In this document: piece after piece, positions 3,182 through 62,413 of the stretch | Layout of the letters: each line of letters begins with the position of its first letter | Numbering within the stretch: position 1 is the first letter of the stretch | From: Nitrospira sp. | GTDB lineage: Bacteria > Nitrospirota > Thermodesulfovibrionia > Thermodesulfovibrionales > Dissulfurispiraceae | Length of the DNA: 64,000 nucleotides | Assembly (NCBI GenBank): GCA_002634385.1 | Contig: NSJL01000017.1 | Location: 1 to 64,000, forward strand | Direction of reading: 5' to 3' | Made by a program: the position numbers and the translations under genes | Notes under the pieces: model-generated | What the model was told of the DNA's origin: nothing | Databases searched by the model: none | The model's input: the letters and a program-made list of their open reading frames with translations, nothing else

Positions 3182-3189
3182 AGGGGGAA

Positions 3190-4782: not shown

Positions 4783-4786
4783 GGGC

Positions 4787-6170: not shown

Positions 6171-6255
6171 GGGGAGATCGTGCAGCAGGGAGCATGCGGC
6201 AGAATCGGTTAGAACCCCCTTTTGGGAAAGAAGGGGGAGAAGAGGAGAAAAGAGA

Positions 6256-8879: not shown

Positions 8880-8910
8880 CCATATAAAACACGACAAGGA
8901 GGGAAATATC

Positions 8911-9504: not shown

Positions 9505-9507
9505 ACA

Positions 9508-21653: not shown

Positions 21654-21655
21654 GT

Positions 21656-22675: not shown

Positions 22676-22698
22676 GGACTGGCCGGGGGCGGTGAACC

Positions 22699-26013: not shown

Positions 26014-27948
26014 ATGGAGACAGCAATCGTTGAAATGGCCGAAGGGGCTGCAAATGGCCTCAGTGCTTTCAATGAGACGGGGGTTTCGCCCCTTTTCAAG
26101 TATCTCTATGCTCTCATGGGAGTGGTAAGCATAGGGATCATCTATAAGGACTTCAAGGGCTCTCAAGAGCTCACTTCGGCCCTGCGGAGCCATCTCTTCA
26201 CAATGATTTTCATCTGGCTTTTCTTCGGGTATGGGATTGTCACCGAGATGGACGTAAAGCACCTTCGGACGGACCAGAACAAGGAATGGAAGGTGAAGAA
26301 CGTGCCGATCGGCCTGTATGGGGCGGTCACGGTGATCAACCAGTTGACGGGTTGGGCACTGGGTTCCACGAAAGGGCTGATGAAGAATGTGGATATAGAC
26401 TTCACCAAGATGCCCTTTGCCAGGGAGAAATACACGCTCAGACTGAAGAGGGCCACGGACAGGCTTGAAAGGAGCATGAGGCAGTACGGGCAGGAGATCA
26501 GCTATTTTGAGAAGAACTGTAAGGACTCCTCCAAAGTGGATACAGAGAATGTAGTATACAACTACCAGCTGTTCGACAAAAGCTATATAGCCGACAGCGC
26601 TCCTTCGGATTGTGCTGCCAGATCAGAGGCCCTGGTTAGCAACATCAAAAACCTTAACAAGGAGGTCGCAGCATTCGAAAATGTCTCCGAGGATGTTCTG
26701 GCACAATACGATGACAGGAGCTGGTTTGGGAAAGTATGGGACGACACCAAGGACTACTGGTCGGAAAAAGTTCCCAGCGTAGCCGACGCTCTGGAGGCCA
26801 TGATCATCCGCCTCTTTTCGACCCTGACGATCGTAAGCGCTTACCTCTATGCGCAGGCGCTGCCCTACTTCCTCGGGATAGTCACCAATCTGTTCTTTAC
26901 GCTGTATCCCCTCTTTGTGGCTCGCGCGTTGCTGCCCGGCAACTGGACAGTGATCGTCTCTTTCATCGAGGGGTATCTCTGGCTTGCCTTTATCCCGGTG
27001 ATCATTGCGGCAGTGGATGGGTTCGATGCCGATAAAATGTCCTATGGAGACTATCTGTCTCTTCAGGACAGCTTCATCACCCTTGCAAAGCTCGCCATCG
27101 TGCTGTCGGCCCCCGCTCTTGCGGGGTTTCTGCTCTTTGGACAGAGATCGAGCAACATCGGGATGAGCGGGGTGAGCGGCATGATTGCCGGAGCGGTTGT
27201 CGGGGCGGCCACCATGGGCGCCAGTCGTCTTATCAGCAAGGGCAGTTCAACCCCCTCGGGCAGCAGGGGAGCCGGGAGCAGCGGAGGAGACACTCCTGTT
27301 TCAAAGGTTACGTCGGGAAGGGAGCCGGGAAGGGTCTCTTCGGAGCCGAATGCCTTTACAGACGGCAGGAGTGCCGCCGTCACGGATGCGGGCAATCTGA
27401 AGCAGAGCATAAGTAACGGGGCGGCCCTCGACAACGCACGAGGCCATGTGTCGGGAGCGCAGGATCGCTCCGGCTCGGGTCCCGACTACGTGAGCTCACA
27501 GGATGTGGTAGGAAAGATCTCGGAAGGGAAGCTCACGGAAGGGCTTTCGGTCATTCCCAAAGACGTGCTCAGGAAGCAGGGGGCAGGTCTCCTTGTCCAG
27601 GACGCAAAGACAGGGGAAGTCCATCCGGTCATGGCAAAACTGCAGAAGTCAGACAATATTGCAGGTAAGCTGGGCAAAGAGGAAATGGTCTACTCGGCAA
27701 TGCCCGGAGGAGGGGCAGGGTCGGAGGCGATGGCCCAGCGCCTGAACAATCCCCAAAAGGGAGATAGCCTCAATGCAAAGTCGATCCGGGACGGTCATCA
27801 GTTTGAGTACGGCACAAGCGTCAACCCGGAAACAGGGGGTGTTGCCCACTCCGTAAAAGTCAGTGATGTGAAGTGGGGGCATGTTTCAAACACAAAGGAG
27901 CTCTCCGGAGGTGAGGCGGAACGATGGCTCAATAATCGAAAGACCTGA
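26014..27948 (+). CDS. traG: TraG-like mating-pair stabilisation membrane protein
   Basis: 644 aa inner-membrane protein. An N-terminal part with membrane segments (about 27-45, 58-77) and the central pair or triple (about 265-345 and 355-380) matches the TraG_N arrangement. It is followed by a Gly-rich stretch (AGAVVGAATMGASRL) and a polar, Ser/Gly-rich C-terminal domain (from about residue 410). TraG of F-type systems spans the membrane with a long C-terminal domain that stabilises mating pairs. It is 6 nt after the TraH-like gene and ends before a strong terminator. Confidence 0.65.
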   Translation: METAIVEMAEGAANGLSAFNETGVSPLFKYLYALMGVVSIGIIYKDFKGSQELTSALRSHLFTMIFIWLFFGYGIVTEMDVKHLRTDQNKEWKVKNVPIGLYGAVTVINQLTGWALGSTKGLMKNVDIDFTKMPFAREKYTLRLKRATDRLERSMRQYGQEISYFEKNCKDSSKVDTENVVYNYQLFDKSYIADSAPSDCAARSEALVSNIKNLNKEVAAFENVSEDVLAQYDDRSWFGKVWDDTKDYWSEKVPSVADALEAMIIRLFSTLTIVSAYLYAQALPYFLGIVTNLFFTLYPLFVARALLPGNWTVIVSFIEGYLWLAFIPVIIAAVDGFDADKMSYGDYLSLQDSFITLAKLAIVLSAPALAGFLLFGQRSSNIGMSGVSGMIAGAVVGAATMGASRLISKGSSTPSGSRGAGSSGGDTPVSKVTSGREPGRVSSEPNAFTDGRSAAVTDAGNLKQSISNGAALDNARGHVSGAQDRSGSGPDYVSSQDVVGKISEGKLTEGLSVIPKDVLRKQGAGLLVQDAKTGEVHPVMAKLQKSDNIAGKLGKEEMVYSAMPGGGAGSEAMAQRLNNPQKGDSLNAKSIRDGHQFEYGTSVNPETGGVAHSVKVSDVKWGHVSNTKELSGGEAERWLNNRKT

Positions 27949-29927: not shown

Positions 29928-29932
29928 AGAGT

Positions 29933-31500: not shown

Positions 31501-32151
31501 ATGCGGATTGGAAGGAAGGCGGTGCGGAATGTGATGCTCTCCCTCTTTCTCCTCTTTTGGGCCCCTCTGTCCCTGGGCGCCCAGCCGGAGCAGCAACCGG
31601 AACAGGAGACGGTCCAGGAAGCGGGGCAGGGGGAAGCAGGGGAGGGCTATAGCCCGGTACATGTGCAGGAACAGGTGCAGGAGAGACCCAAGACGATCCA
31701 TGAAATGATCCAGGAGGCCGAGCAGCGGGCCTCTGCCCATTACCGGGTACCCCTGGAGCTCCTCATGGGCATCCGGAAGGTGGAAAGCAGAGGGTATCCC
31801 TGGGCGCTCTGCATCAACCTGGGCAAGGGCAGAAGCGTCTCCCTCTATCCCCGTTCCTACCAGGAGGCCCTCTACTACCTCGCCCGCCTCGCCACCGACA
31901 ACATCGACATCGGTCCCTGGCAGGTCAACTACCACCACATCGGAAAGCGAGCCGGGGTGAGCAAGGAGCAGATGCTCAACCCCTACATCTCGAGCATGCT
32001 TGCCGCCTACAAGCTCGCCTACGAGATCGCACTGAACGGCTATACCTGGAGCGCGGTAGGCAACTATCACAGCCGTGCCCTGGAGCGGAAGGCGCCCTAT
32101 ATCGACCGGCTGAAGCAGCAGCTCAGAAAGGAGGGCTACCATGTCAACTGA
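31501..32151 (+). CDS. Periplasmic lytic transglycosylase of the transfer system
   Basis: 216 aa from the ATG at 31501; a GTG at 31435 and an ATG at 31534 are alternatives. Signal peptide, then a Gln/Glu-rich linker and a lysozyme-like SLT domain: IRKVESRGYPWALC with the catalytic Glu, DIGPWQVNYHH and a GNYHS motif replacing the usual AYNGG. Such enzymes open peptidoglycan locally for pilus or secretion machines (PilT of R64, VirB1 of T4SS). It overlaps the following PilT-like ATPase gene by 11 nt. Confidence 0.75.
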   Translation: MRIGRKAVRNVMLSLFLLFWAPLSLGAQPEQQPEQETVQEAGQGEAGEGYSPVHVQEQVQERPKTIHEMIQEAEQRASAHYRVPLELLMGIRKVESRGYPWALCINLGKGRSVSLYPRSYQEALYYLARLATDNIDIGPWQVNYHHIGKRAGVSKEQMLNPYISSMLAAYKLAYEIALNGYTWSAVGNYHSRALERKAPYIDRLKQQLRKEGYHVN

Positions 32152-33133
32152 GATGCTGACTACTATGCAGACCGAGATGCGGTGCGACACCCTCATCGAG
32201 GAGCTCCTGCTCCATGCCGTCAGGCTCGGGGCAAGCGACCTGCACCTGACCGAGCTTAAGCCCCCCGCCTTCCGGGTCGACGGGGACCTGCTCAAAGTGG
32301 AGAGGGGAAGAGTGAATGTCTCGGACATGAACCGTTTCCTCGATAAATACATCCCCCAGGGCTATGCGGGCCTGGACGGGGACTTCTCCTTCACCTTCTG
32401 TGAGCGGCGGTGGAGGGGCAACTACTTCCATTCGGGGGGAAAGAGGCTCTCCCTTGCCCTCCGCCTCCTGCCCCTTACCATCCCCCGCATACAGGAGCTG
32501 CGCTTGCCGGAGAGCTTTCTGAAGGCGGCCTCACTCAGGGACGGCATCATCCTGGTCACGGGCCCCACGGGCTCGGGCAAGTCCACCACCATCGCCGCCC
32601 TGATCCGGCACCTCCTTGAGCTGAGGAGCGTGCATCTGATCACCATCGAAAACCCGGTGGAGTACCTCTTTGAGCCCACCAACCACTCCATTGTCAACCA
32701 GAGGGAGATCGGCACCGACACGGTGGACATCGCCTATGCCCTCAAGTACGCCCTCCGGCAGGACCCAGACGTGATCCTGGTGGGAGAGATCAGGGATACC
32801 GAGACCGCCCGTTTGGCGGTGAACGCCGCCGAGACGGGCCACCTGGTCTTTGCCACCCTGCACACGATCAGCGTGGTGGAGACCGTCAACCGGCTCTATG
32901 GCTTGTTCCCCCCGCTGGAGCGGCACTTGGTGCAGCAGCAGATCGCCTCAGCCCTGCGGCTCGTGGTGGCCCAGAGGCTCGTGAAGGCCCCTGAAGGGGG
33001 CAGAAGGGCCGTGGTAGAGGCCCTCTTTCCCCACGACCCGGTGCGGGAGCTGATCCGGGAGGGCAGAAGCTACGAGATCCCCCTTTACCTGGAAGGGGCC
33101 GAGTACATCAACACCATGGGAGTAACCGGATGA
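32141..33133 (+). CDS. PilT-like secretion ATPase (third copy)
   Basis: 330 aa with the most canonical PilT features of the set: GASDLHLTELKPPAFRVDG, Walker A GPTGSGKSTTIAAL (about residues 146-159), Asp box TIENPVEYLF, Walker B ILVGEIRDTETARLA and His box LVFATLHTISVVETVNRL. It overlaps the transglycosylase gene upstream and the VirB4-like gene downstream (4 nt), so it sits in a conjugation operon and not with the pilins. Retraction of the transfer pilus is the obvious guess. Confidence 0.85.
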   Translation: MSTEMLTTMQTEMRCDTLIEELLLHAVRLGASDLHLTELKPPAFRVDGDLLKVERGRVNVSDMNRFLDKYIPQGYAGLDGDFSFTFCERRWRGNYFHSGGKRLSLALRLLPLTIPRIQELRLPESFLKAASLRDGIILVTGPTGSGKSTTIAALIRHLLELRSVHLITIENPVEYLFEPTNHSIVNQREIGTDTVDIAYALKYALRQDPDVILVGEIRDTETARLAVNAAETGHLVFATLHTISVVETVNRLYGLFPPLERHLVQQQIASALRLVVAQRLVKAPEGGRRAVVEALFPHDPVRELIREGRSYEIPLYLEGAEYINTMGVTG

Positions 33134-35706
33134 AGCGGACGGGACTGGAAGGGATTCCCTTTTACACCAAAGGGGAGGTGCGGGAGTGGTTTCATGCTGC
33201 GGAGTCCTTCGGGGACCTGCTCCCCTACCGGGACTACGATCCCGCCACAGGGCTATTCCTCCTGGGGGAGAAGGGCAAGAGCGAGCGGCATGTGGGGGCC
33301 ATGTACGAGTTCAGGGGCTTTGTGCACGATGCAAACAGCCTCGAAGGGCAGCGGCTCGAGATCTCCGGCCTGATCGAATCGGCCCTCCTCAAGATCCCCG
33401 AAGGATATGCCTTTCAGTTTGTCGTGGACTCCGACCGGAACGTGAGCGCCTTTCTGCCGCCCCCTCTTGAGGAGGTGGACCCCGAAAGCGACCTGGACCT
33501 TCTCTATAACGAGCAGCTTGCCTTCCTGTACCGGAGCGCAAAGCACGGGCTCTGGGACAAAAGGAGCGTATTCCCCCGCCTCCTGCGCTTCTTTATCTTT
33601 GTCTTTCATGTCCCCCGGAAGGTGACTCTCGGGGAGAGGGCCGTAAGCGCCCTTGAGCGGGAAGAGCTGGAGTCCGCGGTGCAGGACATCGAAAAGAAGA
33701 AGTACCTGTTCACCTCGAAGATCGCCCTCTTTGAGTCCTCGATGAAGAGCGCGGGCTTCCACCTGAGGCGCTGCGGCGCCCAGGACCTGATCGACTACTT
33801 CTTTCAGCTCCTCCATAAAAACATGTTCAAGGAGGGCATGAGCGCCCCGTCCCACATCCCGGGCATCGACCTGGGAGAGCAGGTGCTCCGCACCTTCCTG
33901 TACACCGATTTCAAGTTCGTCTATGCGGACGGACACTACTACCGGAGCAGTGCGGCAACCAACGCCCCGGGCTACGTCTCCCCCTGTGTCATGTACCGGA
34001 TGCTCGGGGTGCCCGGGGACATTCATCTCTGCCTGACCGGGTATGTGCCGGTGCAGGACAAGGAGAGGAGTGCGCTCAGGTGGAAGGGCAACTTTGCGGC
34101 CCACGGGCTCTTGAACCCCTTCGGCAGGGAGGACAACAACAATGCGGCGATCCTCACTGACATCGACACGATCGAAAAGGAGATGCTCCGGGGCAAGAAG
34201 ATGTTCCACTTCACCTTCACCATGACGAACATCGCGGAGAGCTACGAGCTGGCGAACACCTATGCGAACAAGGCGAAGGACCGGCTTGCGGAGCTGGAGA
34301 TGCCCCTTCTGACGGACAACATCATCTCCCAGAGCCTCTTCAAGGGGAGCCTGCCCTTCCACTACGCCCCGCTTTCGCAGGACAACCACCTCTACCGCAC
34401 CTTCAAGCTGCCCTCCCACTACTTCTCCCAGCTGGTGCCCTCCACCGGCTCCTGGCTGGGCACGCAGAGCCCTGCCATCGTGGGGCTTACCCGCACCTGC
34501 GAGCCCGCGTACCTGGACTTCTTCGATGGCACGGTCCCCCACTTCCTCATCTCCGGGGACACGGGCACAGGCAAGAGCGCCTTCTTCAACCTCCTCCTGC
34601 CCCGGTACCTGAAGAAGGGTGCCCGGGTCTTCATCATCGATCCCATGGGCTCTTTCACCAAGTCCTGCACCCTGTACGGGGGGGAGCGCATCTCCTTTGA
34701 CCTGAACGATCCGGTCTCCTACAACCCCTTTGACTGCGAGCTCGATAAAGAGAGACTGGCCCTCCTTTCGAACTTCCTGGCCTCGATCATGACGAAAGCC
34801 GGAGAGGAACTCTCCATTTCCGACACAAGGACCCTGGAGCGGGCCATCGAGCTCACTTTCGAGAAGATCGGGGCCTACAACGAAAGGCCCGAGCTCGAGG
34901 ACTTCAACAACGTGCTCAAGACGCACTTCGGGGAGCAGGGCAAGGCCCTCTCTGAGCGCCTGGGCTTCTATGTGGGAAGGGGAAAGTACTCGAACTTCTT
35001 CCGGAAGGGCACGTTTGACCTCACCCGCTGCCTTACCCTCTTTGACATCAGCGGGCTGAAGGCGGTGCCCGACCTGATGCGGGCGATGCTCTACAACATC
35101 ATGCTCCTGGTAGGGGAGAGGGTGCGGAAGCTGCCCGGCATGAAGATCCTGGGGATCGACGAGATCCACACCATCCTGTCGGAGTCCATGAATGCGGAGT
35201 TCATCGAAAACGCCCTCCGGACCTACCGGCACTGTCATACGGCCGTGGGGCTCATGATGCAGAAGATCTCGGACCCCCTGAAGTATGGCCGCGTGGGGGA
35301 GGTGATCCTCACCCAGCCCAACTTCCAGATCTTCTTCCACCAGCCCCGGCAGAGCGTGCTGGACGTACTGGGGTACCTGGAGCTGATGGAGTCCGATGCG
35401 CAGGCGGTGGAGGAGCTGAGGACCGTGATGGGCTACTACAGCGAGGCGTTCATCCATGCAAAGAAGCTGAGGACGGGGGGCACGGGCAAAGGGGTGTTCC
35501 GGTTTCTCTCCACCCCGCTGAACTATGCCGCCTTCACTTCCGACCCACCGGACAAGGATGTCTACGGACCTCTCAAGGAGGAGATCAGGGCGCAGCATGG
35601 GGGAGCGTCGGAGAGGGAGGTGGAGCGAAGTGCCAACCGGGAGTTTGCCCGCAGATATCCCCACGGGGTGGCGACCCCCGCCATAAATCCGGAGGACCTG
35701 TGGTAG
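33130..35706 (+). CDS. traC: TraC/VirB4-family T4SS ATPase
   Basis: 858 aa, the usual TraC size. An N-terminal TraC_F-like domain (about 20-430) is followed by the AAA+ ATPase domain with Walker A SGDTGTGKSAFF (about residues 474-485), IDPMGSFTKSC, Walker B MKILGIDEIHTIL (about 668-680) and a final arm HCHTAVGLMMQKISD. VirB4/TraC ATPases are essential for building the transfer pilus and secretion channel. Last gene of its operon; a 383-bp structured gap follows before the coupling protein gene. Confidence 0.9.
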   Translation: MKRTGLEGIPFYTKGEVREWFHAAESFGDLLPYRDYDPATGLFLLGEKGKSERHVGAMYEFRGFVHDANSLEGQRLEISGLIESALLKIPEGYAFQFVVDSDRNVSAFLPPPLEEVDPESDLDLLYNEQLAFLYRSAKHGLWDKRSVFPRLLRFFIFVFHVPRKVTLGERAVSALEREELESAVQDIEKKKYLFTSKIALFESSMKSAGFHLRRCGAQDLIDYFFQLLHKNMFKEGMSAPSHIPGIDLGEQVLRTFLYTDFKFVYADGHYYRSSAATNAPGYVSPCVMYRMLGVPGDIHLCLTGYVPVQDKERSALRWKGNFAAHGLLNPFGREDNNNAAILTDIDTIEKEMLRGKKMFHFTFTMTNIAESYELANTYANKAKDRLAELEMPLLTDNIISQSLFKGSLPFHYAPLSQDNHLYRTFKLPSHYFSQLVPSTGSWLGTQSPAIVGLTRTCEPAYLDFFDGTVPHFLISGDTGTGKSAFFNLLLPRYLKKGARVFIIDPMGSFTKSCTLYGGERISFDLNDPVSYNPFDCELDKERLALLSNFLASIMTKAGEELSISDTRTLERAIELTFEKIGAYNERPELEDFNNVLKTHFGEQGKALSERLGFYVGRGKYSNFFRKGTFDLTRCLTLFDISGLKAVPDLMRAMLYNIMLLVGERVRKLPGMKILGIDEIHTILSESMNAEFIENALRTYRHCHTAVGLMMQKISDPLKYGRVGEVILTQPNFQIFFHQPRQSVLDVLGYLELMESDAQAVEELRTVMGYYSEAFIHAKKLRTGGTGKGVFRFLSTPLNYAAFTSDPPDKDVYGPLKEEIRAQHGGASEREVERSANREFARRYPHGVATPAINPEDLW

Positions 35707-36089: not shown

Positions 36090-38093
36090 ATGCATCATCT
36101 TGAGCAGATACTCAATAAAAGCTTTCTCGCGGATATCGCTCACTATCTCCGCACGACAACCGGGCTGCCCTTCACTCCTAGTCAGATCCTCGTATTCTTT
36201 GTCGTGCTTGTCGGAGTGCCCTCTCTTTTTCTTATCCTCTATGCCCTCCTTTATACAAGGGCCAGAACAAGAATCGGGAATCACCCTGCAGCAACGGGAC
36301 GTTTTGCCACGGACCGGGAAGTCCTCAAGAACTTCCGTATCCCCACGAAGGGATACTTTTTAAAAAAGTGGACAGTCATCGGTAGCCTTGTCCTCTTTGT
36401 CCTGGGAGAGACGGTATTTTTCCTGATCAAGCGCGAAATCTCCCTCTCCCCCTTTCTTGTCCTTCTTCCTGTTTGCTTCTCCTCTGTGTCCGCATATTTC
36501 ATTATCCATAGCGAGGGCCCTCTCCTGAAAAAAGTTGCCGGGCATAACTACTTTCAGATCGGGGCATACAAGGGAGTGCGGGTCGGCATCAAAGCAAAAG
36601 GCCGGCAGGAGGGCATTCTCGTTCCCGGACCGACTGGGTCAGGCAAGACCTCTTCCTTTCTCCTCACGAACCTGATGAGCGATGCCCACGGAGACAGCTC
36701 AGCGATAGTCATCGACAGGAAGACCGATGAGGACATTGTGGATATCATCGGCCATGCATGGCAAAAGCAGGGGAAAAAGGTGATCAACTTCGACCCCTAC
36801 ACATGGAAGATGAATATAAATCCCCTTCTCCTGGTCGAGCCCGATTTTAGCCGTCAGGAGACGCATGATGCCATAAGAGAGATCATTGAGTCTCTCTTCG
36901 GGAGCTACTTTGCCCATGTCGGGGAGATGGGTCCCGATACGGACCACTTTATCGGAAGGGAGTACCGCCTTCTTAAGGCAATCATCATGGCTGTTCTGAA
37001 GCTTCCCATCGAGTATAGAAACCTGGTGACCGTATTCGATGCGGTAAAGCTTCCCCCCGATGAATTGACCCGGCTCATCGCCTGCACCGGCGACAAGCAG
37101 GTAACAGATGAGTTCCGATTCTTTACCGGGAGCAGCGTCCAGGAGAGAGTGAATGCTTTGCAGGGTATCTACCGGAAGCTTCAGTTCCTGGACGCCCCGG
37201 TGATGAGACAGGCGTTGGTCCGGAATGACTTCGATCTGAATCTCTTTTTCCGTGATCCTTGCCTTTTCGTAATCAAGGCCCCGCTGCACCGGGAGGACAT
37301 GGGGATCATGGCGAGCATGATTACCCGCCTTCTTCAGATGCGCCACTATGAATATGCAGCCCTATGCTACCGGGAGGGGAAAAAGCCCCGCCCCATATGG
37401 TACTACCTCGATGAGTTCGGCCACCTTAACCTCCCGAATGCCCATACGCTTGCCACCACGATACGCTCCTCCGGAGGAGGCCTGATCATCTGCGTTCAAG
37501 ATAAGGAGGACCTTCGGGAGTTCACGCGCAAGCTGAAGTCGGGGAGCGCAAAGGCCTTTGAATCATCACTGAGGACCATGGTTGTCCTGCCCGGCTGCCA
37601 TCATGAAATGTGCAAGGAAATATCCGCCTGGCTGGGAGATATACCCTTTGAGAACCACTATAAAATGAGGGGTATCTTTGAGATTATCAATTTTCGCTAC
37701 CAGAAAAGGATCGAGAGGGCGCCGCTCCTGACTCCTGACTCCCTCCATTACATGAACGAAGAACAGTGCCTCGTCCTTACCAAAAAAAGGCCTTTTTTTG
37801 CGCTGCAATTGCCGTACTACAAAGACAAGAGGCTCAAAAGACTGATAGGAAAGCCGGTGAAATTCCATATGCCCTCGCCCGTGCAGGAAATAAGAAGAGG
37901 GGAAATCTCAGCGTTACTGAAAGAGAGGGCATCGGATATTCAGCATTATGGTAAGGCATTTGACACACAGGGTCAAAAGGAGGCAATCGGTGCTCCGGGT
38001 AATGAAGACGCGCCTTTGCAGGCAAACAGGGGGAGCTCGATGGTGCGGCTGCAGAGCCTGGGAGAATACGACGATCCGATGGATGATTTATGA
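36090..38093 (+). CDS. traD: Type IV coupling protein, TraD/VirD4 family
   Basis: 667 aa. N-terminal membrane helices (about 33-52, and a pair at about 100-145) anchor a hexameric ATPase: Walker A PGPTGSGKTSS (about residues 177-187), IDRKTDED, and Walker B IWYYLDEFGHLNLP (about 433-446), then the ATTIRSSGGGLIICVQ sensor segment. It recruits the DNA-protein complex to the channel. A polar C-terminal tail (about 590-667) may bind partners. Its stop overlaps the next start by 4 nt, so it is translated together with the replication-relaxation-like and RpoC-like genes. Confidence 0.9.
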   Translation: MHHLEQILNKSFLADIAHYLRTTTGLPFTPSQILVFFVVLVGVPSLFLILYALLYTRARTRIGNHPAATGRFATDREVLKNFRIPTKGYFLKKWTVIGSLVLFVLGETVFFLIKREISLSPFLVLLPVCFSSVSAYFIIHSEGPLLKKVAGHNYFQIGAYKGVRVGIKAKGRQEGILVPGPTGSGKTSSFLLTNLMSDAHGDSSAIVIDRKTDEDIVDIIGHAWQKQGKKVINFDPYTWKMNINPLLLVEPDFSRQETHDAIREIIESLFGSYFAHVGEMGPDTDHFIGREYRLLKAIIMAVLKLPIEYRNLVTVFDAVKLPPDELTRLIACTGDKQVTDEFRFFTGSSVQERVNALQGIYRKLQFLDAPVMRQALVRNDFDLNLFFRDPCLFVIKAPLHREDMGIMASMITRLLQMRHYEYAALCYREGKKPRPIWYYLDEFGHLNLPNAHTLATTIRSSGGGLIICVQDKEDLREFTRKLKSGSAKAFESSLRTMVVLPGCHHEMCKEISAWLGDIPFENHYKMRGIFEIINFRYQKRIERAPLLTPDSLHYMNEEQCLVLTKKRPFFALQLPYYKDKRLKRLIGKPVKFHMPSPVQEIRRGEISALLKERASDIQHYGKAFDTQGQKEAIGAPGNEDAPLQANRGSSMVRLQSLGEYDDPMDDL

Positions 38094-38918: not shown

Positions 38919-41900
38919 ATGACGACAAGGAAAGATACGGAATTTCATGCGGTGCAGCTCGGTATTTTAAGCTCCGAAAAAAAGCTGTCCCTCTCCTCTG
39001 GGGAAATATCCTCTCCGGAGACCCTCGACGCGAAGACACGAAGACCCGTAAAAGGCGGGTTGCTCTGTGAACGGATCTTCGGCCCCTTGAAGAAAGGCGA
39101 CTGCCCTTGCGGAGGGAACAAGGGGGAGAAGCAGGGGACGGTTACCTGCGCTCGCTGCGGAGCACCGTTGATCGATCCCGGAGAGCGCAGGAGGCGTTTC
39201 GGGCACATTGCTCTTGCCGCTCCGGTAGTCCATGTATGGTACTACAAAGGAGCGCAGAGTATCATCGCGCACCTCCTCGGTCTTCCCCCGCGGAAAATCG
39301 AGAGGCTCGTGCTGTACCATCTGTATATTGTAATCGAGCCGGGCGTATCCGGTCTCAAGGCGAATCGGTTTCTGTCTTTGGAGGAGTACAGAAGACTGCG
39401 CGACAGGGCGTCGGGCTTGCGTGCGGAAACAGGGGCGGAAGCGGTCAGAACGCTTCTCGGAAGACTCGATCTCCCCTCTCTTGCCCGGGACTTGAGAGGG
39501 AAAGCCGCATCTTCCCTGCGCGCCCGGGCCCGCCTTCAGATAGTGGAGAGATTTCTTCTCTCCGGCGTTCCTCCCGAATGGATGGTTATGGATATTCTGC
39601 TCGTACTGCCACCGGACCTCAGGCCGACTCTCTTTATGGACGATGGAACAATTGCCGAATCCGACCTCAACGCCCTTTATGGCAGGGTTATCCGCAAAAA
39701 CCGGAATATCAGGACGATGCGCCGTCTATGGGCACCGGAGATACTCCTTGATTGTGAAAAGAGACAACTGCAGACTTCGGTCGACTGCCTGCTTCATAAC
39801 GGCAGAACCGCGTCGATCACCTCGCGCTCTCAAAGCCGCTTTTTGACATCCCTGTCCGACCTGCTCGGCTCAAAGCAGGGGATGTTCAGGAAGAATCTCC
39901 TGGCAAAGCGGGTGGATTATTCCGCGAGGTCCCCGATCACCGTCGGGCCTGAGCTCAGGCTCCACCAGGTGGGACTGCCCAGGGCGCTCGCTCTTGAACT
40001 CTATAAGCCGTTCCTTTATGCGTATCTTATCCGGAAAGGGTTTGCCCCGAACCTCAGGCAGGCACGAAAACTCGTTGAGCAGGGGAAGCCGGAAGTCTGG
40101 GATGCCCTCGATGACGCCATTTCGGAACATCCGGTCATCATCAACAGAGCGCCTACCTTGCATACACTGAGTATGCAGGCTTTTGCCCCGGTGCTCGTCG
40201 AGGGCAGCGCCATTCGCCTCCATCCTTTGGTCTGTTCGGGCTTTAATGCGGATTTTGACGGAGACACCGTGGCGGTGTATCTGCCCCTCTCCCTCGAGGC
40301 CCAGATCGAGGTCCGGACTCTCATGATGTCGGTAAACAACCTCTTTCACCCGGCAACCGGCGCGTCCGCGATGTCTCCCTCCCAGGACATCATCCTGGGT
40401 CTCTACTTCCTTACCATGGAGCGAGAGGGAGCGAAGGGAGAGGGGATGATCTTCGCAGACCCCGAAGAGGCGGAGCGCGCCTGCGCTGGTGGAGTAGTTG
40501 AAGAACACGCAAAGGTGCGGGTCCGGGTGAGCGGTTCCCTGGTGAATACGACGGTGGGACGGGCGATCCTCTTCTCGATTCTCCCCGGTGGCATCCCCTT
40601 CTCTTTTATAAATAAGGTGCTGAAGAAAAGGGATATCGGCGCCCTGGTGGAAAGGTGCTATGAGGTGCAGGGCAAGGCGCGAACCGTACGGCTTCTGGAT
40701 GACCTCAAGGCCCTCGGCTATGAGTACGCTACCCGCTCGGGGATCTCCCTCTGTCTTGATGACCTGCACATTCCCCTCACGAAGGCGGAGATAGTGGGGA
40801 CGGCGCAGCGGGAGGTGGAGGAGGTTGTTGCCCACTACGCCCAGGGAAGGATCTCCGGGAGCGAGAGGTACAATAAAGTCATTGATATCTGGACAAAAGC
40901 TGCCGACAGGATCGCCGACGAGGTCATGAAAGAGCTGAAAGAGTGCGGGGTTACCGCGGATGACGCCTTCGCCGGCAGCGGCTTCCGCACCATGAAAGGG
41001 TTCAATTCGCTTTACATCATGGCGGATTCCGGGGCACGGGGTGACAAGAACCAGATCAGGCAGGCCTCGGGCATGCGGGGCCTTATGGCGAAGCCCTCCG
41101 GGGACATTGTCGAACTCCCGGTAACCGCAAGCCTCAGGGAGGGGCTGAGCGGTTTTCAGTATTTTCTGTCCGCCCATGGTGCCCGTACCGGAAGGGTAGC
41201 GGCTCCCCTGAAGACCCCGCTCTCGGGATACTTCACTCGCCGGCTGGTCTATGCTGCCCGGGATGTCTCGATTACGAAGGAGGACTGCGGGTCCATCGAT
41301 GGGATCTATAAGGAGGCCCTCAAAGAGGGCTCGGTAGTCCTGCAGCCCCTGGATAAGAGAATCTGGGGAAGCTTCCTGGCTGATATCGTTACCAGTCCGG
41401 TCGACGGTACCGTCGTTGCTCCGTTTAATACCCTCGTGGATGACTCGGTCGTACAAGCGATTATCAATGCCGGGGTGGAGAGAGTCAAGATGAGGTCGCC
41501 TCTGACCTGCAAGGCAGAGAGGGGCGTCTGCGCACGGTGTTATGGCGTGAACCTCGGGCGCAGGATTCCCGCCGAGATCGGCGATGCCGTGGGCATCGTC
41601 GCTGCTCAATCCATTGGGGAGCCGGGGACCCAGCTGACCCTCCGGTCCTTCCACGGAGGGGGTACTGCCTCAATGAGGAGTACCCTCAGCATGCTGGAGG
41701 CACGCTATAGCGGGGTAGTGCGTTTCAATGATCTGAAGTGTGTCCGGAGGAGCGATGCTGCTCTCGTGCTCATCAACAAAGCGGGAAGTGTCTCCCTGCT
41801 GGATGAAGAGGGAGGGCGGGAGAGGGAAAGACTGCCGGTCCTGTACGGGTATGAGCTCTGTGTGGAGGACGGACAGTATGTGGAGGCCGGCCATATCCTG

Positions 41901-42896
41901 GCACGATGGGATGCCTATACACTGCCGATCATTGCCCATGTGGGCGGTACGGTTGTCTACAAGGATATCAAGGCAGGGGATACTGCAAGGGAAGAGGTCG
42001 ATGAATACGGGATTGTCAGGAGAATCATCACGGGATCGACGGTTACGCTGAAACCGGGAGTCTTGGTCAGGTCGGCTGATGCGGTCTATCAGTATCCCCT
42101 CCCTCCAGGGGCCCGCGTGCTTGTACAGGAAGGTGGGACGATATCGCCGGGCAGTGCCCTTGCCTCACTACCCAGAAAGGCTTCAAAATCCATGGATATC
42201 GCCGGTGGTCTCCCGCGGGTGATCGAGCTCTTCGAGGCAAGGGTACCGAAGAATGCGACGCTCATCAGCGAAATCGACGGAAGGGTACTCTACGGTTCGT
42301 ACAGCAAAAACAAGCTGAAGATCACAATAAAAGGAGAGGGAATATCCCGTGACTACCTTCTCCCTGAAGAACGGACCCTTACCGTCTACGATGGAGACTT
42401 CGTCAAGGCGGGCACCCCGTTGGTCGATGGTCCCCTCAATCCGCATGATCTGATCGCTGCAGCGGGACTCCCCTCGCTCTGGACCTACCTGATCGAAGAG
42501 GCTCAAAGGGTGTACCGTTCGCACGGGGTGGGCATCCACGACAAACACTTTGAGGTAATCCTGCGGCAGATGACGGACTTTGTGCTGATTACCGATCCCG
42601 GCGATTCCGGCTTTCCGCCCGGGAGGATAGTCAGCAGAAGGAATTTCGAGCAGCTCTGCGTACGAATGAGGCTCCGGGGGAAAGGGGCTCTTCCCTCTGC
42701 CAGGCCTCTCCTTGTAGGAATCACGAAGGTTCCCCTCCTCTCCGGGAGCTTTCTGGCTGCAGCTTCTTTCCAGGATACGGTAAAGGTGCTGGCCGAGGCT
42801 GCCATCGAGGGCAGGATTGACGCATTGGAAAGCAATGCAGCCAGAATAATGGCCGGGAAGAAGATCCGTGCAGGCACCGGACTCTATGCAGGATGA
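38919..42896 (+). CDS. Element-borne paralogue of RNA polymerase beta' subunit (RpoC-like)
   Basis: 1325 aa, end-to-end similar to bacterial beta' (E. coli 1407). Present: zinc site 1 (C62, C64, C77, C80), clamp coiled coil (about 245-290), [15 protein letters not shown], catalytic loop [12 protein letters not shown] (443-454, with D445, D447, D449), bridge helix (about 750-775), zinc site 2 (C790, C864, C871, C874), trigger-loop residues R909 and H912, an SI3-like insertion and the C-terminal [16 protein letters not shown] and [10 protein letters not shown] regions. Odd: the usual QMAVH after DFDGD is TVAVY; the bridge helix has Pro at 763 and 767 (E. coli A787 and A791). GGGAG precedes the start; 10 nt behind the previous gene, so it is cotranscribed with the coupling protein. 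No rpoB, rpoA or sigma gene is nearby. It could pair with host alpha2-beta, act as a decoy, or give resistance to RNA polymerase inhibitors (all inference). Confidence 0.93.
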
Positions 42897-43315: not shown

Positions 43316-44320
43316 TCAGGCTGCTGCTTTCGCCAGCATAACCGATCTCTTGTAGTATCCCCTGGCATTTGCCATCTGGGGGTCCTCCGCTTTGAAGGTG
43401 GAATGGGCGATGGAGGAAAGGTAGTGGTGGAGCAGTTCTGCTCCCCCTCCCTCCAGGAGCAGAAGGTCGATCTCCCCTTCGGAGCTCCATTTCGATTTCA
43501 CGGTACCGGTAATGCGCAGGCCTATCTGCTCAAGGACATTGTTCACAATATGGCTGATATTCCGTATCTGGCCGGCGACCTTCAACTGTTTGCTCTCGAT
43601 GCAGGCCTCTGCATCGGCGATAGTGAAGTGGTCCAGTCCGTATTCGTTCATCAGTGCCGTACAAAGCATGTCGTACAGAGTATAGGTGCCGATCGGCACG
43701 CTCCCTGAGGCCTTCTCGAGATAATTCCGCGCGTTTTCGACCAGTATCCAGTCGGTGGTGCCGTGGCCGATGTCGAGCACCCCGAAACGACGGGCATGAG
43801 GAGCATTCCTGTTCACCCCGCCATCACTGTCGAAGAAAAAGTGGAAGAAAGCACCGAAAGGTTGGGGGATTACATTAACCTTGACCATTTCAGGGTTGAT
43901 CCGGATACTGCTGAAGACCCTGAGCACAACCTGCTCGGCCTTCTCTTTGTCTCTCATGTAGTTCACGGGCAGTCCCGTCACGATTACTATTTTTTCAATT
44001 TCATAGAGGTTGATTCCTTCCATGAACCTCTTCAGGGCAGAGATCATGAGAGCCGCATAGATATCGCTTTCGATCCAGTCCCTGGTTTTGAGCTGCAGGG
44101 GAAAGTCGCTGAATTTTGCCCTCTCTCCGACAAAGAACCTTTTGCTGTTATACTCCACTTCATCTCCAACGGAAGAATTCCCCTCTTTCAGGGAAAAATT
44201 CAGATCCTTCGCATACCCTACGACAGAAGGAAACCTGAAATAGCCTCCCTCCCAAACCCCCTTTGTCGCACTGTACCCAATATCCAAACCGAGCCGCAGT
44301 ATCTTCCTCTCTGCTGTCAT
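43316..44320 (-). CDS. parM: ParM-like actin-family partition ATPase
   Basis: 334 aa actin-like protein of the ParM/ALP (archaeal Ta0583-like) group. Phosphate loop 1 GLDIGYSATKG (Asp13), VIVTGLPVNY, phosphate loop 2 VLDIGHGTTDW (Asp183), adenosine loop LLLLEGGGAELL (about 286-297), and the closing PQMANARGYYKR typical for the group. ParM filaments push plasmid copies apart, so this supports an extrachromosomal phase for the element. Divergently placed from the small genes at 45.4 kb, with direct repeats upstream as candidate centromere. A -10-like TATAAT lies near 44385. Confidence 0.85.
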   Translation of the reverse strand: MTAERKILRLGLDIGYSATKGVWEGGYFRFPSVVGYAKDLNFSLKEGNSSVGDEVEYNSKRFFVGERAKFSDFPLQLKTRDWIESDIYAALMISALKRFMEGINLYEIEKIVIVTGLPVNYMRDKEKAEQVVLRVFSSIRINPEMVKVNVIPQPFGAFFHFFFDSDGGVNRNAPHARRFGVLDIGHGTTDWILVENARNYLEKASGSVPIGTYTLYDMLCTALMNEYGLDHFTIADAEACIESKQLKVAGQIRNISHIVNNVLEQIGLRITGTVKSKWSSEGEIDLLLLEGGGAELLHHYLSSIAHSTFKAEDPQMANARGYYKRSVMLAKAAA

Positions 44321-50845: not shown

Positions 50846-52531
50846 ATGAGCAATGAGCCGAACAAGATCATTTACTCCATGATCGGGGTAAGCAAGCATT
50901 ATGACAAGAAACCGGTACTGAAGGATATCTATCTCTCCTATTTCTACGGAGCCAAGATCGGCGTCATCGGCCTCAACGGGTCGGGGAAGAGCTCTCTTCT
51001 GCGAATCCTTGCGGGGGTGGATAAGGAGTTCAACGGTGAGACAGTTCTTTCTCCCGGTCATACCGTGGGGTTCCTCGAGCAGGAGCCGAAGCTCGATGAT
51101 ACGAAGACGGTGCGGGAGATCGTAGAGCAGGGAGTGCAGGAAATAGTGGACACTCTCAATGAATACAATAGAATAAATGACAAGTTCGCCGAGCCCCTGT
51201 CAGAGGATGAAATGAACAGGCTCATCGAGCGGCAGGGTGCGGTGCAGGAAAAGCTGGATGCTCTGGATGCCTGGAACCTGGATTCCCGCCTCGATATGGC
51301 CATGGATGCCCTGCGCTGCCCGGCGGGCGACACTCCGGTAAAGGTGCTTTCCGGCGGGGAGAAGCGCCGTGTGGCGCTCTGCCGGCTTCTCCTGCAAAAA
51401 CCCGATATTCTGCTGCTGGACGAGCCCACCAACCACCTCGATGCAGAGACGGTAGCGTGGCTGGAGCATCATTTGCAGGGATATCCGGGCACCGTCATCG
51501 CTGTGACCCACGACCGCTATTTTCTCGATAATGTGGCGGGCTGGATCCTGGAGCTTGACCGGGGGCAGGGAATTCCCTGGAAAGGGAACTACTCCTCCTG
51601 GCTCGGGCAGAAGAAAAACCGGTTGCAGCAGGAGGAAAAGGCCGAAAGTGAGCGCCAGAAGACACTGCAACGCGAGTTGGAATGGATCAGCATGTCTCCG
51701 AAAGGACGTCATGCGAAATCAAAGGCGCGCATCAACTCCTACGAGGCGCTGCTCAGCCAGGATACCGAGAAGCGGGCAAAGGAACTGGAAATTTATATCC
51801 CCCCTGGGCCCCGCCTGGGCGATGTGGTGATACAGGCTGATGCAGTGAGTAAAGCATATGGTGAACGCATCCTCATGGAGGAAATGACCTTCTCCCTCCC
51901 CCCCGGAGGGATCGTGGGAGTCATCGGCCCCAACGGGGCGGGAAAGACCACACTGTTCCGGATGATTACCGGGCAGGAAAAGCCCGATTCAGGATCATTC
52001 GGGACCGGGGATACTGTAAAGGTGGCGCATGTCGACCAGGGCCGTGAATCTCTCGATCCAAATAAGACCATATGGGAAGTCATTTCAGGAGGCGAGGATG
52101 TTCTTCAACTCGGCAAAAGGCAGGTTAATTCAAGAGCGTATGTGGCGCGCTTCAATTTTTCGGGGGCCGACCAGCAGAAGAAAGTCGGAACGTTGTCGGG
52201 CGGCGAGCGGAACCGCGTCCACCTGGCGTGCATGCTGAAGGAAGAGGCAAACGTTCTGCTGCTGGACGAGCCCACCAATGATCTGGATGTCAACACCATG
52301 CGGGCACTGGAGGAGGCGCTCGAAAACTTCGCCGGATGCGCCGTAGTCATCAGTCACGACCGCTGGTTCCTCGACCGGATTTCCACCCATATTCTCGCCT
52401 TTGAGGGAGACAGCAAGGTGGTCTGGTTCGAGGGGAATTACTCCGAATACGAAGCGGACAGGAAAGCAAGACTCGGCGCTGCCGCTGACCAGCCCCACCG
52501 CATCAAGTACCGCCAGTTGACCAGGGAATAG
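50846..52531 (+). CDS. ettA: EttA-type ABC-F ribosome-binding ATPase
   Basis: 561 aa with two ABC domains: Walker A GLNGSGKSS and GPNGAGKTT, signatures LSGGEKRR and LSGGERNR, Walker B LLLLDEPTNHLD and LLLLDEPTNDLD, no membrane segment. Length, the start SNEPNKIIYSMIGVSKHY and the arm and linker features match EttA, which gates the first elongation steps on the ribosome according to ATP/ADP ratio. Start chosen at the ATG behind AGGAGG. Ordinary chromosomal gene. Confidence 0.93.
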   Translation: MSNEPNKIIYSMIGVSKHYDKKPVLKDIYLSYFYGAKIGVIGLNGSGKSSLLRILAGVDKEFNGETVLSPGHTVGFLEQEPKLDDTKTVREIVEQGVQEIVDTLNEYNRINDKFAEPLSEDEMNRLIERQGAVQEKLDALDAWNLDSRLDMAMDALRCPAGDTPVKVLSGGEKRRVALCRLLLQKPDILLLDEPTNHLDAETVAWLEHHLQGYPGTVIAVTHDRYFLDNVAGWILELDRGQGIPWKGNYSSWLGQKKNRLQQEEKAESERQKTLQRELEWISMSPKGRHAKSKARINSYEALLSQDTEKRAKELEIYIPPGPRLGDVVIQADAVSKAYGERILMEEMTFSLPPGGIVGVIGPNGAGKTTLFRMITGQEKPDSGSFGTGDTVKVAHVDQGRESLDPNKTIWEVISGGEDVLQLGKRQVNSRAYVARFNFSGADQQKKVGTLSGGERNRVHLACMLKEEANVLLLDEPTNDLDVNTMRALEEALENFAGCAVVISHDRWFLDRISTHILAFEGDSKVVWFEGNYSEYEADRKARLGAAADQPHRIKYRQLTRE

Positions 52532-60535: not shown

Positions 60536-60616
60536 TAAAGCGGAAAATCCCTTTTTTTGATCCAGTATAGGCGATCGGTACCATCACATTCACGCACGAA
60601 GCTACAGAGGTGTCTG

Positions 60617-62413
60617 ATGCTCTTTCCCACGACCGGAGGGCGCCGCAGAAGTACTCTCTTTCTTTTTTGCGGGACTCACCTTTTCCTCCTGTTCCTTGCC
60701 GGAGCGCTGCTCTGCATGGGAATGCCGGGGCTGGCGCAGGCTGCTCCCGCTGTGCGCATCTCCGTCGAAGGAGTGGAGGGCGAGCTCCGGGAAAATATTC
60801 TCGAATATCTCAGCATTGAGCAGCGTAAAAGGGAGGAGGATCTTTCCGAGGAGGACGTGCGCAGGTTATACGAAAAAGCCCCGGAAGAGATCAGGCGCGC
60901 CCTGCAGCCCTTCGGTCTTTACAAGCCGGACGTCACCTCCGAACTCTCCCGGAAGGAGGACGAATGGAGTGCCCGTTTCATGGTTGACCCGGGGCCGGCG
61001 GTCAGGATACGCGAAATTGACCTGGCCATTTCGGGGCCGGGCTCCGGGGATGCGCGGCTGGTGCGGCTCAGGGAGGATTTCCCGGTGAAGGAGGGGCAGG
61101 TTCTGCACCATGAGAGATATGAAAGGGCGAAGCGTATGCTCCAGGAAACCGCCGCAGAGGGGGGCTACCTCGATGCCTACTTCCTTGAGCATAAGGTCGT
61201 CGTACATCTCGAGGAATACTACGCGTCAGTGGAAATACACCTCGATACCGGACCCCTTTACTACTTCGGAGAGATAACTTTTCACCAGGAGGCGCTCCGG
61301 CCCGAGTTCCTGACCCGCTTCATCCCCTTCCAGCAGGGAGACCCCTATCGCATTTCAGCCCTGCTTGATCTGCAGAGCGTGCTTTATGAGAGCGACTACT
61401 TCAGCCAGGTAGAGGTAAGGCCCCGGCGGGACCTGGAGGAGGATCTGATCATCCCGGTGGAGGTGCTCCTTGAGCCCCGGAAACGGCAGAGATATATCTT
61501 CGGGATAGGATATGGTACCGATACCGGTGTGCGCGGCGTCCTAGGATGGGAAAACCGCAGGGTCAACCGCAGGGGCCATAAATTCACCGCCGAGCTGAAC
61601 CTGTCGGAGATACGGGGCAGTCTCACTTCCCGGTATACCATTCCCATGAAACACCCTGTTACCGACCATTTCGATATCTCGGCTGGTTTTTCCCATGACG
61701 ACACACAGACCAGCAGGAGCTCAACACGCCTGCTGGGTATCAGCTATACGCAGGTGCGCGGGAAATGGCAGGAGACCTTTTACCTCAATTTCCAACAGGA
61801 GAAATTCACCATCGGCGACGAATCGGGGGACTCCACCCTTCTCCTGCCGGGGACGAACTGGGTGCGGGTCAGGGCGGATAACCGCATCAATACCACAAAC
61901 GGGAGCAGGCTGCTCCTCGACCTCAGGGGGGCTCACACCGCCCTGGTGTCCGATACCTCTTTCATCCAGGCGCGGGTTCATGCAAAGGTGATACGCAGCC
62001 TGGGTACTGTCGGCCGGGTTATTCTACGCGGAGATGTGGGCACGACCCGGGTGAAGGACCTCTCCCGGCTTCCCGCATCCCAGCGTTTCTTCGCAGGGGG
62101 CGACCAGAGCGTGCGCGGATACGCCTACAACAGTCTCGGTCCCGAAAACGCGGAAGGGAAGGTGATCGGCGGGAAGCATCTGCTGGTGGGCAGCGTGGAG
62201 TATGAACAGCATATCATGAAGAAATGGAGTGCCGCGGTATTCTATGATACGGGGAATGCCCTTAACAGGTTTTCCGGTGCGCTGCAGCAGGGGGCCGGTT
62301 TCGGGATACGGTGGAGGTCCCCGGTGGGCCCGGTGCGGGTGGATATGGCCTGGGCCCTGAGCAAACCCGATACCCCGTGGCGCATTCACATTGCTATCGG
62401 CCCCGACCTATGA
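60617..62413 (+). CDS. tamA: TamA-like Omp85 outer-membrane assembly protein
   Basis: 598 aa from the ATG at 60617. Signal peptide, three POTRA domains (for example VRISVEGVEGELRENI, PAVRIREIDLAISG, and YYFGEITFHQEALRPEFL) and a C-terminal beta barrel with the Omp85 signature FFAGGDQSVRGYAYNSLGP and the terminal DMAWALSKPDTPWRIHIAIGPDL strand. TamA partners TamB to insert certain outer-membrane proteins and move lipids. The tamB start overlaps its stop (ATGA). Confidence 0.92.
   Translation: MLFPTTGGRRRSTLFLFCGTHLFLLFLAGALLCMGMPGLAQAAPAVRISVEGVEGELRENILEYLSIEQRKREEDLSEEDVRRLYEKAPEEIRRALQPFGLYKPDVTSELSRKEDEWSARFMVDPGPAVRIREIDLAISGPGSGDARLVRLREDFPVKEGQVLHHERYERAKRMLQETAAEGGYLDAYFLEHKVVVHLEEYYASVEIHLDTGPLYYFGEITFHQEALRPEFLTRFIPFQQGDPYRISALLDLQSVLYESDYFSQVEVRPRRDLEEDLIIPVEVLLEPRKRQRYIFGIGYGTDTGVRGVLGWENRRVNRRGHKFTAELNLSEIRGSLTSRYTIPMKHPVTDHFDISAGFSHDDTQTSRSSTRLLGISYTQVRGKWQETFYLNFQQEKFTIGDESGDSTLLLPGTNWVRVRADNRINTTNGSRLLLDLRGAHTALVSDTSFIQARVHAKVIRSLGTVGRVILRGDVGTTRVKDLSRLPASQRFFAGGDQSVRGYAYNSLGPENAEGKVIGGKHLLVGSVEYEQHIMKKWSAAVFYDTGNALNRFSGALQQGAGFGIRWRSPVGPVRVDMAWALSKPDTPWRIHIAIGPDL

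Follow-up and report, generated by a model that had tools for sequence, protein, structure and literature searches.

A second rpoC within a set of conjugation genes

The stretch of DNA that we analysed ("the window": 64,000 nucleotides, on contig C18 of the genome of an uncultured Nitrospira) contains a gene for a paralogue of RpoC, the β′ subunit of RNA polymerase, along with genes for conjugation and type IV pili (Table 1). The window encodes both a VirB4/TraC ATPase and a coupling protein, as expected of a conjugative element. No relaxase or integrase was identified among the 30 window ORFs that were scanned, and the left end of the element lies off the contig. Scans of the window with Rfam and for tRNAs gave no match, and RpoC, RR (the Replic_Relax-like protein), ParB and an M50 protease had no match to anti-phage defence systems in PADLOC.

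Table 1. Features of the window and of its RpoC, with residue numbers of the window's protein unless marked otherwise
Feature	Positions	Strand	Basis or remark
Type IV pilus genes: two secretins, T2SSE ATPases, T2SSF	1664..11258	+	Pfam
TraU-like conjugation protein	17173..18099	+	PF06834
TraG-N-like conjugation protein	26014..27948	+	PF07916, 30.0 bits, below 36.1 cut-off
T2SSE/PilT-like ATPase	32141..33133	+	PF00437
TraC/VirB4-like conjugation ATPase	33130..35706	+	PF19044 and PF11130
TraD/VirD4-like coupling protein	36090..38093	+	PF02534, 97.6 bits
Replic_Relax-like (RR) protein, 272 aa	38090..38908	+	winged helix and alpha/beta domain
Element-borne rpoC (RNA polymerase β′ paralogue), 1325 aa	38919..42896	+	Pfam and NCBIfam
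Zipper (residues 25-46; E. coli 33-54)	38991..39056	+	conserved residues replaced
First zinc site, C62/C64/C77/C80	39102..39158	+	aligned to E. coli C70/72/85/88
Lid (residues 236-248; E. coli 251-263)	39624..39662	+	6/11 conserved positions lost
Clamp helices, sigma2 docking site (residues 249-292; E. coli 264-307)	39663..39794	+	alignment
Catalytic NADFDGD (residues 443-449)	40245..40265	+	present in 25/25 family sequences
Bridge helix (residues 745-782; E. coli 769-806)	41151..41264	+	alignment
R759 (E. coli L783R), bridge helix	41193-41195	+	alignment
Second zinc site, C790/C864/C871/C874	41286..41540	+	aligned to E. coli C814/888/895/898
Trigger-loop L908 (E. coli M932L)	41640..41642	+	alignment
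SI3 and flanks (about residues 918-1173)	41670..42437	+	missing in 11-member subclade
Actin-like (ALP/ParM-type) protein, convergent with rpoC	43316..44320	-	PF17989, PF21522
Host chromosomal flank, ABC-F type ATPase	50846..52531	+	92% identical in G028
Host chromosomal flank, BamA/TamA-like (presumed)	60557..62413	+	83% identical in G028

The stop codon of traD overlaps the ATG of the RR ORF, and just 10 nt separate the stop of RR from the start of rpoC. Because these ORFs overlap or are closely spaced, traD, RR and rpoC are very likely transcribed together, as a preliminary description of this DNA proposed. An actin-like gene follows rpoC on the opposite strand, and it is placed likewise in two other genomes (G018 and G028).

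The preliminary description also stated that no gene for another polymerase subunit or for a sigma factor is nearby. The genome has a single match to rpoB, which is on another contig (C63), and none of its six matches to sigma-70 region 2 are on C18; for rpoA, the statement holds for the 30 window ORFs that were scanned with Pfam. Directly behind rpoB is an ordinary rpoC (C63:7769-11755), whose product is 48% identical to the window's RpoC. The genome thus has two rpoC genes (on C63 and C18) and one rpoB, so the window's gene is not a misplaced sole rpoC, which had been raised as a concern.

Because the genome bin has an estimated contamination of 5.87%, we compared the right-hand flank of the element with a second species of the genus (G028). 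A contig of that genome (C409) starts inside the same actin-like gene, and its sequence is collinear with the 44.0-62.9 kb part of the window. Since the element is at the same place in this second species, beside host-family genes, it is not an assembly artefact. The collinearity, together with the shared flanking genes (an ABC-F gene and a presumed BamA/TamA-like gene), led us to reject contamination or a chimera. The element is integrated in the host chromosome. We looked for the exact junction between element and chromosome and did not find it, and end overlap did not indicate that C18 is circular.

A complete β′ with altered regions

All five RpoC Pfam domains (1 to 5) match the window's protein, in order. 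It scores 1247.6 bits against the rpoC_TIGR equivalog model from NCBIfam, above the cut-off of 963.5 bits; the host's ordinary RpoC scores 1826.7 bits. In an alignment to the E. coli protein, D445/D447/D449 correspond to the catalytic D460/462/464, and R909 and H912 of the trigger loop correspond to R933 and H936. From the bridge helix to the second zinc site, the offset from E. coli numbering is constant, at 24. These results confirm what had been claimed from the sequence: an RpoC from end to end, with both zinc sites, the NADFDGD motif, the trigger-loop Arg and His, and that constant offset. More broadly, every test that we ran supports a full-length β′ paralogue inside a conjugation operon. 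In the family of related proteins, the catalytic Asp triad, R933/H936 and the second zinc site are intact in 25 of 25 aligned sequences, and the first zinc site is intact in all 23 that cover that region. The members that lack SI3 form a subclade of 11 proteins of about 1100 aa, including that of G018.

Two substitutions are fixed in the family (E. coli numbering). R783 and L932 are present in 41 of 41 family proteins, while L783 and M932 are present in 198 of 198 conventional relatives among the matches listed. The absence of the usual L783/M932 is a feature of the lineage and lies outside the definition of the RpoC family. The window's bridge helix also carries prolines (P763 and P767); prolines at 787 and 791 (E. 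coli numbering) are found in just part of the family. All four positions (783, 932, 787 and 791) are conserved across all of the conventional relatives that we examined.

We also considered positions that are conserved in 44 conventional RpoCs (44 of 45 sequences; L116, the divergent chromosomal RpoC of G022, was excluded). At 97 of these 437 positions, the conserved residue is missing from most family members; these include 8 of 15 positions in the zipper and 10 of 30 in the clamp helices. The zipper, lid and clamp helices together lost 24 of 56 positions, versus 73 of 381 for the rest of the protein (odds ratio 3.2, P = 2e-4), a grouping that we chose after seeing the separate regions. None of the tests for single regions survives correction for 16 regions. 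Just 1 of 27 conserved positions was lost in region 467-560. The zipper and the lid face promoter DNA, as described in part of PMC5101437. Some sigma-docking residues are retained (R/K at 275 and A/S at 302), so the protein may bind host sigma factors.

A family of element-borne rpoC genes

A second rpoC of the window's type is present in at least 12 of the 176 genomes of the order Thermodesulfovibrionales. In a tree, the 49 family members that were included all group in a single clade that excludes 51 conventional RpoCs; a further rooted tree was built with 23 sequences. The chromosomal RpoCs of the Thermodesulfovibrionales are the sister group of the family in these trees. The window's gene does not cluster with the host's own rpoC; tight clustering would have refuted the original claim. 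The family is old and recurring, with a single origin. We rejected a viral origin, as the sole candidate stretch in viral_contigs encodes no relative.

The chromosomal RpoCs of the order are about 45-50% identical to the family and have the same domains, zinc sites, catalytic motif and trigger-loop R/H. The family differs from them in having R783/L932 and in its altered zipper, lid and clamp helices. The genes differ in context as well: the family rpoC has no adjoining rpoB (none in 11 other genomes, within the stretch read), and an RR gene is in front of it.

The family rpoC is under purifying selection: dN/dS is 0.17 (NG86) or 0.13 (YN00) for the window versus G028 and 0.17 (NG86) or 0.20 (YN00) for G174 versus G159. 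The estimate covers these two pairs, as dS is saturated in more distant ones. Most family members have unbroken open reading frames. The exceptions are in G175, where rpoC is split into three frames, and in G016, which has just a fragment of rpoC that contains a stop.

The RR gene and the DNA upstream

RR is immediately upstream of rpoC in 9 of 11 testable genomes, with a gap of 6-33 nt, and in 8 of those 9 the gene order is parB-RR-rpoC. In G018, RR is 2.8 kb upstream of rpoC, while the flanks of rpoC in G030 lack RR and the nearest one is about 17 kb away. Of the 15 RR-like matches in the order, 8 lack a neighbouring rpoC, so RR can work without it.

The N terminus of RR (residues about 3-99) is a MarR/PadR-like winged helix. 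The second part, an alpha/beta domain, contains a conserved PD...ExD motif, which we read as a putative PD-(D/E)XK-like core, and the C-terminal half is covered by no fold match. RR shares a weak Pfam match (22.1 bits for the window's protein, just below the 25.3 cut-off) and the winged-helix N terminus with the Replic_Relax proteins (PF13814). The excerpted literature under that family name does not describe a linkage to rpoC.

Among seven non-redundant regions upstream of parB-RR-rpoC, five contain a perfect 6-3-6 palindrome and five contain a TAATAT box between -35 and -49. (These counts omit G159, which is a near copy of G174. Both motifs were spotted by eye and then tested against mononucleotide shuffles.) We found neither motif in front of the window's own operon. 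In the window, GTAATAT does precede the ATG at 1664 by 43 nt and the actin-like gene by 68 nt, but it is about as frequent on the contig as expected by chance, so we rejected it as a shared promoter motif. Arrays of 12-bp direct repeats, which we take to resemble iteron origins, are present in 3 of 8 upstream regions (7.2, 4.5 and 3.7 copies in G042, G104 and G160); none adjoins the window's operon. G175, G042 and G104 showed a clear enrichment of 7-mer direct repeats; G174, G159, G153, G022 and G160 did not.

Comparison with known systems

In the textbook view, bacteria have one core RNA polymerase, which owes its specificity to sigma factors. The known contributions of mobile elements are sigma factors, regulators and, in some phages, whole polymerases. 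As described in part of PMC5431353, Nonomuraea and other actinomycetes have a duplicated rpoB and hence two RNA polymerases per cell. There too, a second copy of a core subunit accompanies the ordinary one in the same genome, but it is β that is duplicated, whereas here it is β′, and the elements that carry it have conjugation or partition genes. Also, the element's rpoC has a linked DNA-binding partner. The abstract of PMC5431353 does not link the Nonomuraea rpoB to a conjugative element.

Jumbo phages encode multisubunit RNA polymerases that are whole enzymes without α (PMC7598289, in part). Those are likewise relatives of cellular RNA polymerase that mobile elements encode, with their own promoter recognition. 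Because the element encodes just one full-length β′, unlike the jumbo phages, its enzyme would need the host's β and α. We rejected a polymerase of the jumbo-phage type: the element has no β-type subunit, the single rpoB is elsewhere, and conjugation genes surround rpoC. Outside of bacterial-looking records, the best full annotated phage β′ matches were from Rhizobium phages, at 28% identity.

We found 72 plasmid records with a match, none of them more than 60% identical to the window's RpoC. In the four annotated records that we inspected (from Legionella adelaidensis, Shewanella baltica, Serratia liquefaciens and Clostridioides difficile), rpoC is extrachromosomal, but rpoB and neighbouring housekeeping genes are alongside. 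The window's rpoC is flanked not by rpoB and ribosomal genes but by TraD and RR upstream and the actin-like gene downstream, so we rejected a captured rpoBC cluster.

Possible roles of the second β′

The element's β′ may be an exchangeable subunit that forms a hybrid, element-dedicated RNA polymerase with the host's β and α; we judge the chances of this to be about even. The element's β′ would take the place of the host's β′ in a share of RNA polymerase. The hybrid core (the element's β′, the host's β, two α subunits and probably ω) would be dedicated to transcribing the element's own genes. The winged-helix protein RR would bring the hybrid core to the element's DNA, and in the other branch, a ParB-type protein would also recruit it. 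Initiation would then rely less on the promoter contacts that the host normally uses. We infer the assembly with host β and α, the catalysis, the recruitment by RR or ParB, and the genes transcribed. Among the three roles proposed originally, subunit exchange fits best because the residues for catalysis are kept, the initiation-facing regions are changed, the gene is under purifying selection, and it has a dedicated DNA-binding neighbour.

A more specific and rather doubtful version is that elements of the Thermodesulfovibrionales keep a separate lineage of single-subunit-swap polymerases, which would predate the split of the two element types. The element's β′, its bridge helix rewired (R783/L932), would capture the host's β and α, and RR (with ParB in one branch) would replace the usual promoter contacts. 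Genes for conjugation and maintenance would thereby have a promoter code that is in part independent of the host. If a hybrid polymerase is formed, then the core enzyme can be exchanged by one subunit, via elements that bring β′ alone and a fixed DNA-binding partner, and host-independent transcription of conjugation genes becomes testable.

The hybrid polymerase might instead serve replication or establishment, by making a primer or the first transcripts on the element's DNA, either at an origin bound by RR or ParB or on the entering single strand. This is a variant of the hybrid-polymerase explanation, not its opposite. The genes that accompany rpoC (those for Replic_Relax, ParB or actin-like partition proteins and, in the window, also the coupling protein) would fit, as would the 12-bp arrays in three genomes. 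But we identified no replication initiator gene beside the module, and most upstream regions, including the window's, lack arrays, so we consider this role unlikely. It is less likely still that β′ confers on the polymerase a resistance to some inhibitor, be it an antibiotic or a phage protein, as had also been suggested. Substitutions at position 783 of E. coli β′ can confer resistance to salinamide (PMC4029172, in part), and this is the site of the family's invariant R783; other bridge-helix and zipper residues, which are targets of several inhibitors, are altered too. However, changes are also seen at a distance from known drug sites, in the lid, zipper, clamp helices and C-terminal segment. 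We identified no gene for resistance or export beside rpoC, and a whole β′ with a dedicated DNA-binding partner would be an odd resistance cassette.

The remaining suggestion was that β′ acts as a decoy or poison: by sequestering the host's β and α, or sigma, it would stop host transcription in the donor or the recipient. A full-length protein on a mobile element, with the assembly-facing region 467-560 mostly retained, could do so. The Asp triad, the trigger-loop R/H and the bridge helix, none of which a decoy would need, are intact in all 25 aligned sequences, so this fits poorly and we consider it very unlikely. We give hardly any credence to a functionless relic, a transient duplicate, or an error of assembly or binning: the contamination estimate and the broken copies in G175 and G016 would allow for it, but most members have open frames, dN/dS is 0.13-0.20 in the two pairs, the family forms one old clade, and two species share the same insertion beside host-family genes. 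The family also offers natural variants of the bridge helix and the trigger loop (R783, L932 and, among some members, the prolines at 787 and 791).

A second, full-length RpoC

The preliminary description had proposed a full-length β′ paralogue with no sigma gene nearby, and both points held up. The ORF encodes 1325 amino acids and has RpoC domains 1-5 in the correct order (Pfam scan). It scores 1247.6 bits against the RpoC equivalog model from NCBI, above the cut-off of 963.5. An alignment with E. coli RpoC and 44 conventional RpoCs shows both zinc sites, the NADFDGD motif, and R933 and H936 of the trigger loop at the residues that had been named. On all the sequence tests that we made, the protein is RpoC, that is, itself a member of a known family. 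A profile search of the genome's contigs found no sigma-70 region 2 on C18, the contig with the window.

A possible objection had been that the window gene might be the only rpoC in its genome (77 contigs, 4.31 Mb); it is not. Another rpoC lies directly behind rpoB, for which there is one match in the genome, on contig C63; the two RpoC proteins are 48% identical.

A family of element-borne rpoC genes

We searched 176 genomes of the order Thermodesulfovibrionales, with a second look at 31 of these, and found a second rpoC, of this family, in at least 12 (G000, G018, G022, G028, G030, G042, G104, G153, G159, G160, G174 and G175). There are further members among 5.8 billion proteins (considering the best 120 of 7999 scored candidates per search). 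When 395 genomes of the phylum were sampled, all listed matches with scores above every conventional RpoC came from this order.

The preliminary description had also allowed that the protein might cluster tightly with the host's own RpoC. Instead, the family forms one clade with full support in all three trees (25 family members and 45 conventional RpoCs; 49 and 51, with FastTree; and 9 and 14, with a mixture model). The family appears as sister to the chromosomal RpoCs of Thermodesulfovibrionales (support 93 in the 25+45 tree and 96 in the mixture-model tree). Because the stem is long (about 0.43-0.45 changes per site), the exact attachment point is less sure than the family's unity.

Two other unusual genes turned up (Table). 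Over its best segments, the fused ORF of G101 shares 31-35% identity with the window protein; it is unlike the element-borne family. Besides its divergent gene, G022 carries a conventional rpoC on C108 and one of the family on C195; contamination is possible.

Operon types and mobility

The window, G028 and G018 belong to branch A (17 rows of the 25+45 tree), as does a group of 11 in which about residues 918-1173 (SI3 and its flanks) are missing. The window and G018 share the gene order TraC, TraD, RR (a Replic_Relax-like winged-helix protein), rpoC and an actin-like gene; in G018, RR and rpoC are separated by other ORFs, a RES/Xre pair among them. (G160 also has a RES ORF near its module.) For seven branch-A RpoCs, an RR protein is listed on a contig of equal length.

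In branch B (8 rows), the order is parB-RR-rpoC in G022, G042, G104, G153, G159, G160 and G174, as it is in G175, which is outside that tree. The ParB ORFs of these eight genomes are related, and all four that were tested match ParB_N. An M50 protease ORF follows rpoC in G153, G159 and G174 (the Pfam assignment is for G174's). The exception in branch B is G030: its rpoC has no RR beside it, and RR lies about 17 kb away, as does an actin-like gene. Overall, RR precedes rpoC by 6-33 nt in 9 of 11 readable genomes (G028, whose contig begins inside rpoC, is outside this count). Of the 15 RR-like matches in the order, 8 have no adjoining rpoC.

A 12.66-kb block is common to G159 and G174, although these come from two families of the order, and beyond its left end their DNA differs; judged by its sequence, the block is a recent transfer. 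The G153 module adjoins a phage-type integrase, and G016 has a decayed remnant of RR and rpoC.

The element in the window

By its gene content, the window carries a conjugation-type element: it has TraC/VirB4, TraD/VirD4 and TraU genes, a weak match to TraG-N, and genes for type IV pili. TraD and RR overlap by 4 nt, RR and rpoC are 10 nt apart, and the actin-like gene follows in convergent orientation. Beyond about 50 kb, chromosomal genes take over.

The same element is present in another species of the genus, G028. There, contig C154 has rpoC together with the actin-like gene; a further contig, C409, starts inside the latter and runs through the same flank (ABC-F protein 92% identical, BamA-like protein 83%). 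Because element and flank are shared, the insertion is old and common to both species, and an assembly chimera is very unlikely.

Table. Features of the window and of related loci (L-numbers; genome and contig in parentheses)
Feature	Position	Remarks
Direct duplication	209-1271 and 18939-20001	1.06 kb, 86% identical, within two large ORFs; no Pfam match for the second ORF
IS110-type transposase and DUF4143 AAA ATPase	21641-24543	inside the element
Two small ORFs	29589-30247	presumably resembling Phd/YefM antitoxin and RelE/ParE toxin
TraC/VirB4	33130-35706
TraD/VirD4	36090-38093
RR	38090-38908 (+)
rpoC	38919-42896 (+)
Tandem repeat	44651-44719	35 bp, 2 copies, 82% matches; between actin-like gene and host-side flank
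RES/Xre toxin-antitoxin pair	L117:9274-10151 (G018:C185)
12.66-kb block	L164:7079-19731 and L165:7269-19901	96.8% identity; parB-RR-rpoC-M50 inside
RR and rpoC remnant	L173:6189-6494 (G016:C164)	internal stop; neighbours resemble the window's pilus and AAA genes
2296-aa ORF	L167:3806-10693 (G101:C115)	rpoB and rpoC Pfam domains in a single polypeptide
Divergent rpoC	L116:11361-15062 (G022:C135)	1233 aa, lacks the SI3 region; follows rpoB directly, in a cluster that looks ordinary

Selection and changed residues

dN/dS is 0.17 (NG86) or 0.13 (YN00) between the window and G028, and 0.17 or 0.20 between G174 and G159. All 25 family rows retain the catalytic and trigger-loop residues. Among the matches listed, all 41 family proteins have R at 783 and L at 932 (E. 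coli numbering), and all 198 conventional proteins have L and M. The R783/L932 pair is also present in each of the 12 genomes. Most of branch A has prolines at 787 and 791 (16 and 17 rows). Natural enzymes are described as having prolines in the bridge helix only very rarely, and some such prolines make an archaeal enzyme more active (PMC2988716, PMC2776397), at positions that we equate with 787 and 791 by our own alignment.

Most of the family has lost 97 of 437 positions that are conserved in conventional rows. The zipper, lid and clamp helices, which face promoter DNA and sigma (PMC5101437), lost 24 of 56 versus 73 of 381 elsewhere; we chose this grouping with the results for individual regions already in view, and the single-region p-values (0.007 to 0.018) are uncorrected across 16 regions. 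Region 467-560 lost 1 of 27.

A proposed hybrid polymerase

Because catalysis and the probable assembly surface are kept and the initiation surface is changed, the simplest and most likely reading is that the element's β′ enters the host core and would change where the hybrid enzyme starts transcription. RR would be the obvious partner, since it is of a DNA-binding type wherever it was modelled and is nearly always the preceding gene. We infer the assembly, activity, recruitment and target genes of this enzyme from sequence. Three alternatives are possible, given here from the most to the least probable: the β′ might prime replication, give resistance to drugs or phage inhibitors, or act as a decoy.

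We found no description of an element with such a β′ in the open-access literature that we searched, which only indicates its absence from print. In its way of working, the proposed hybrid enzyme is closest to the case of actinomycetes in which a second rpoB gives the cell two polymerases (PMC5431353), and the polymerases of jumbo phages are likewise element-borne (PMC7598289). In contrast to both, the β′ here stands alone, its elements carry conjugation or partition genes, and it has its own partner gene. No system described in the literature that we searched combines these parts.
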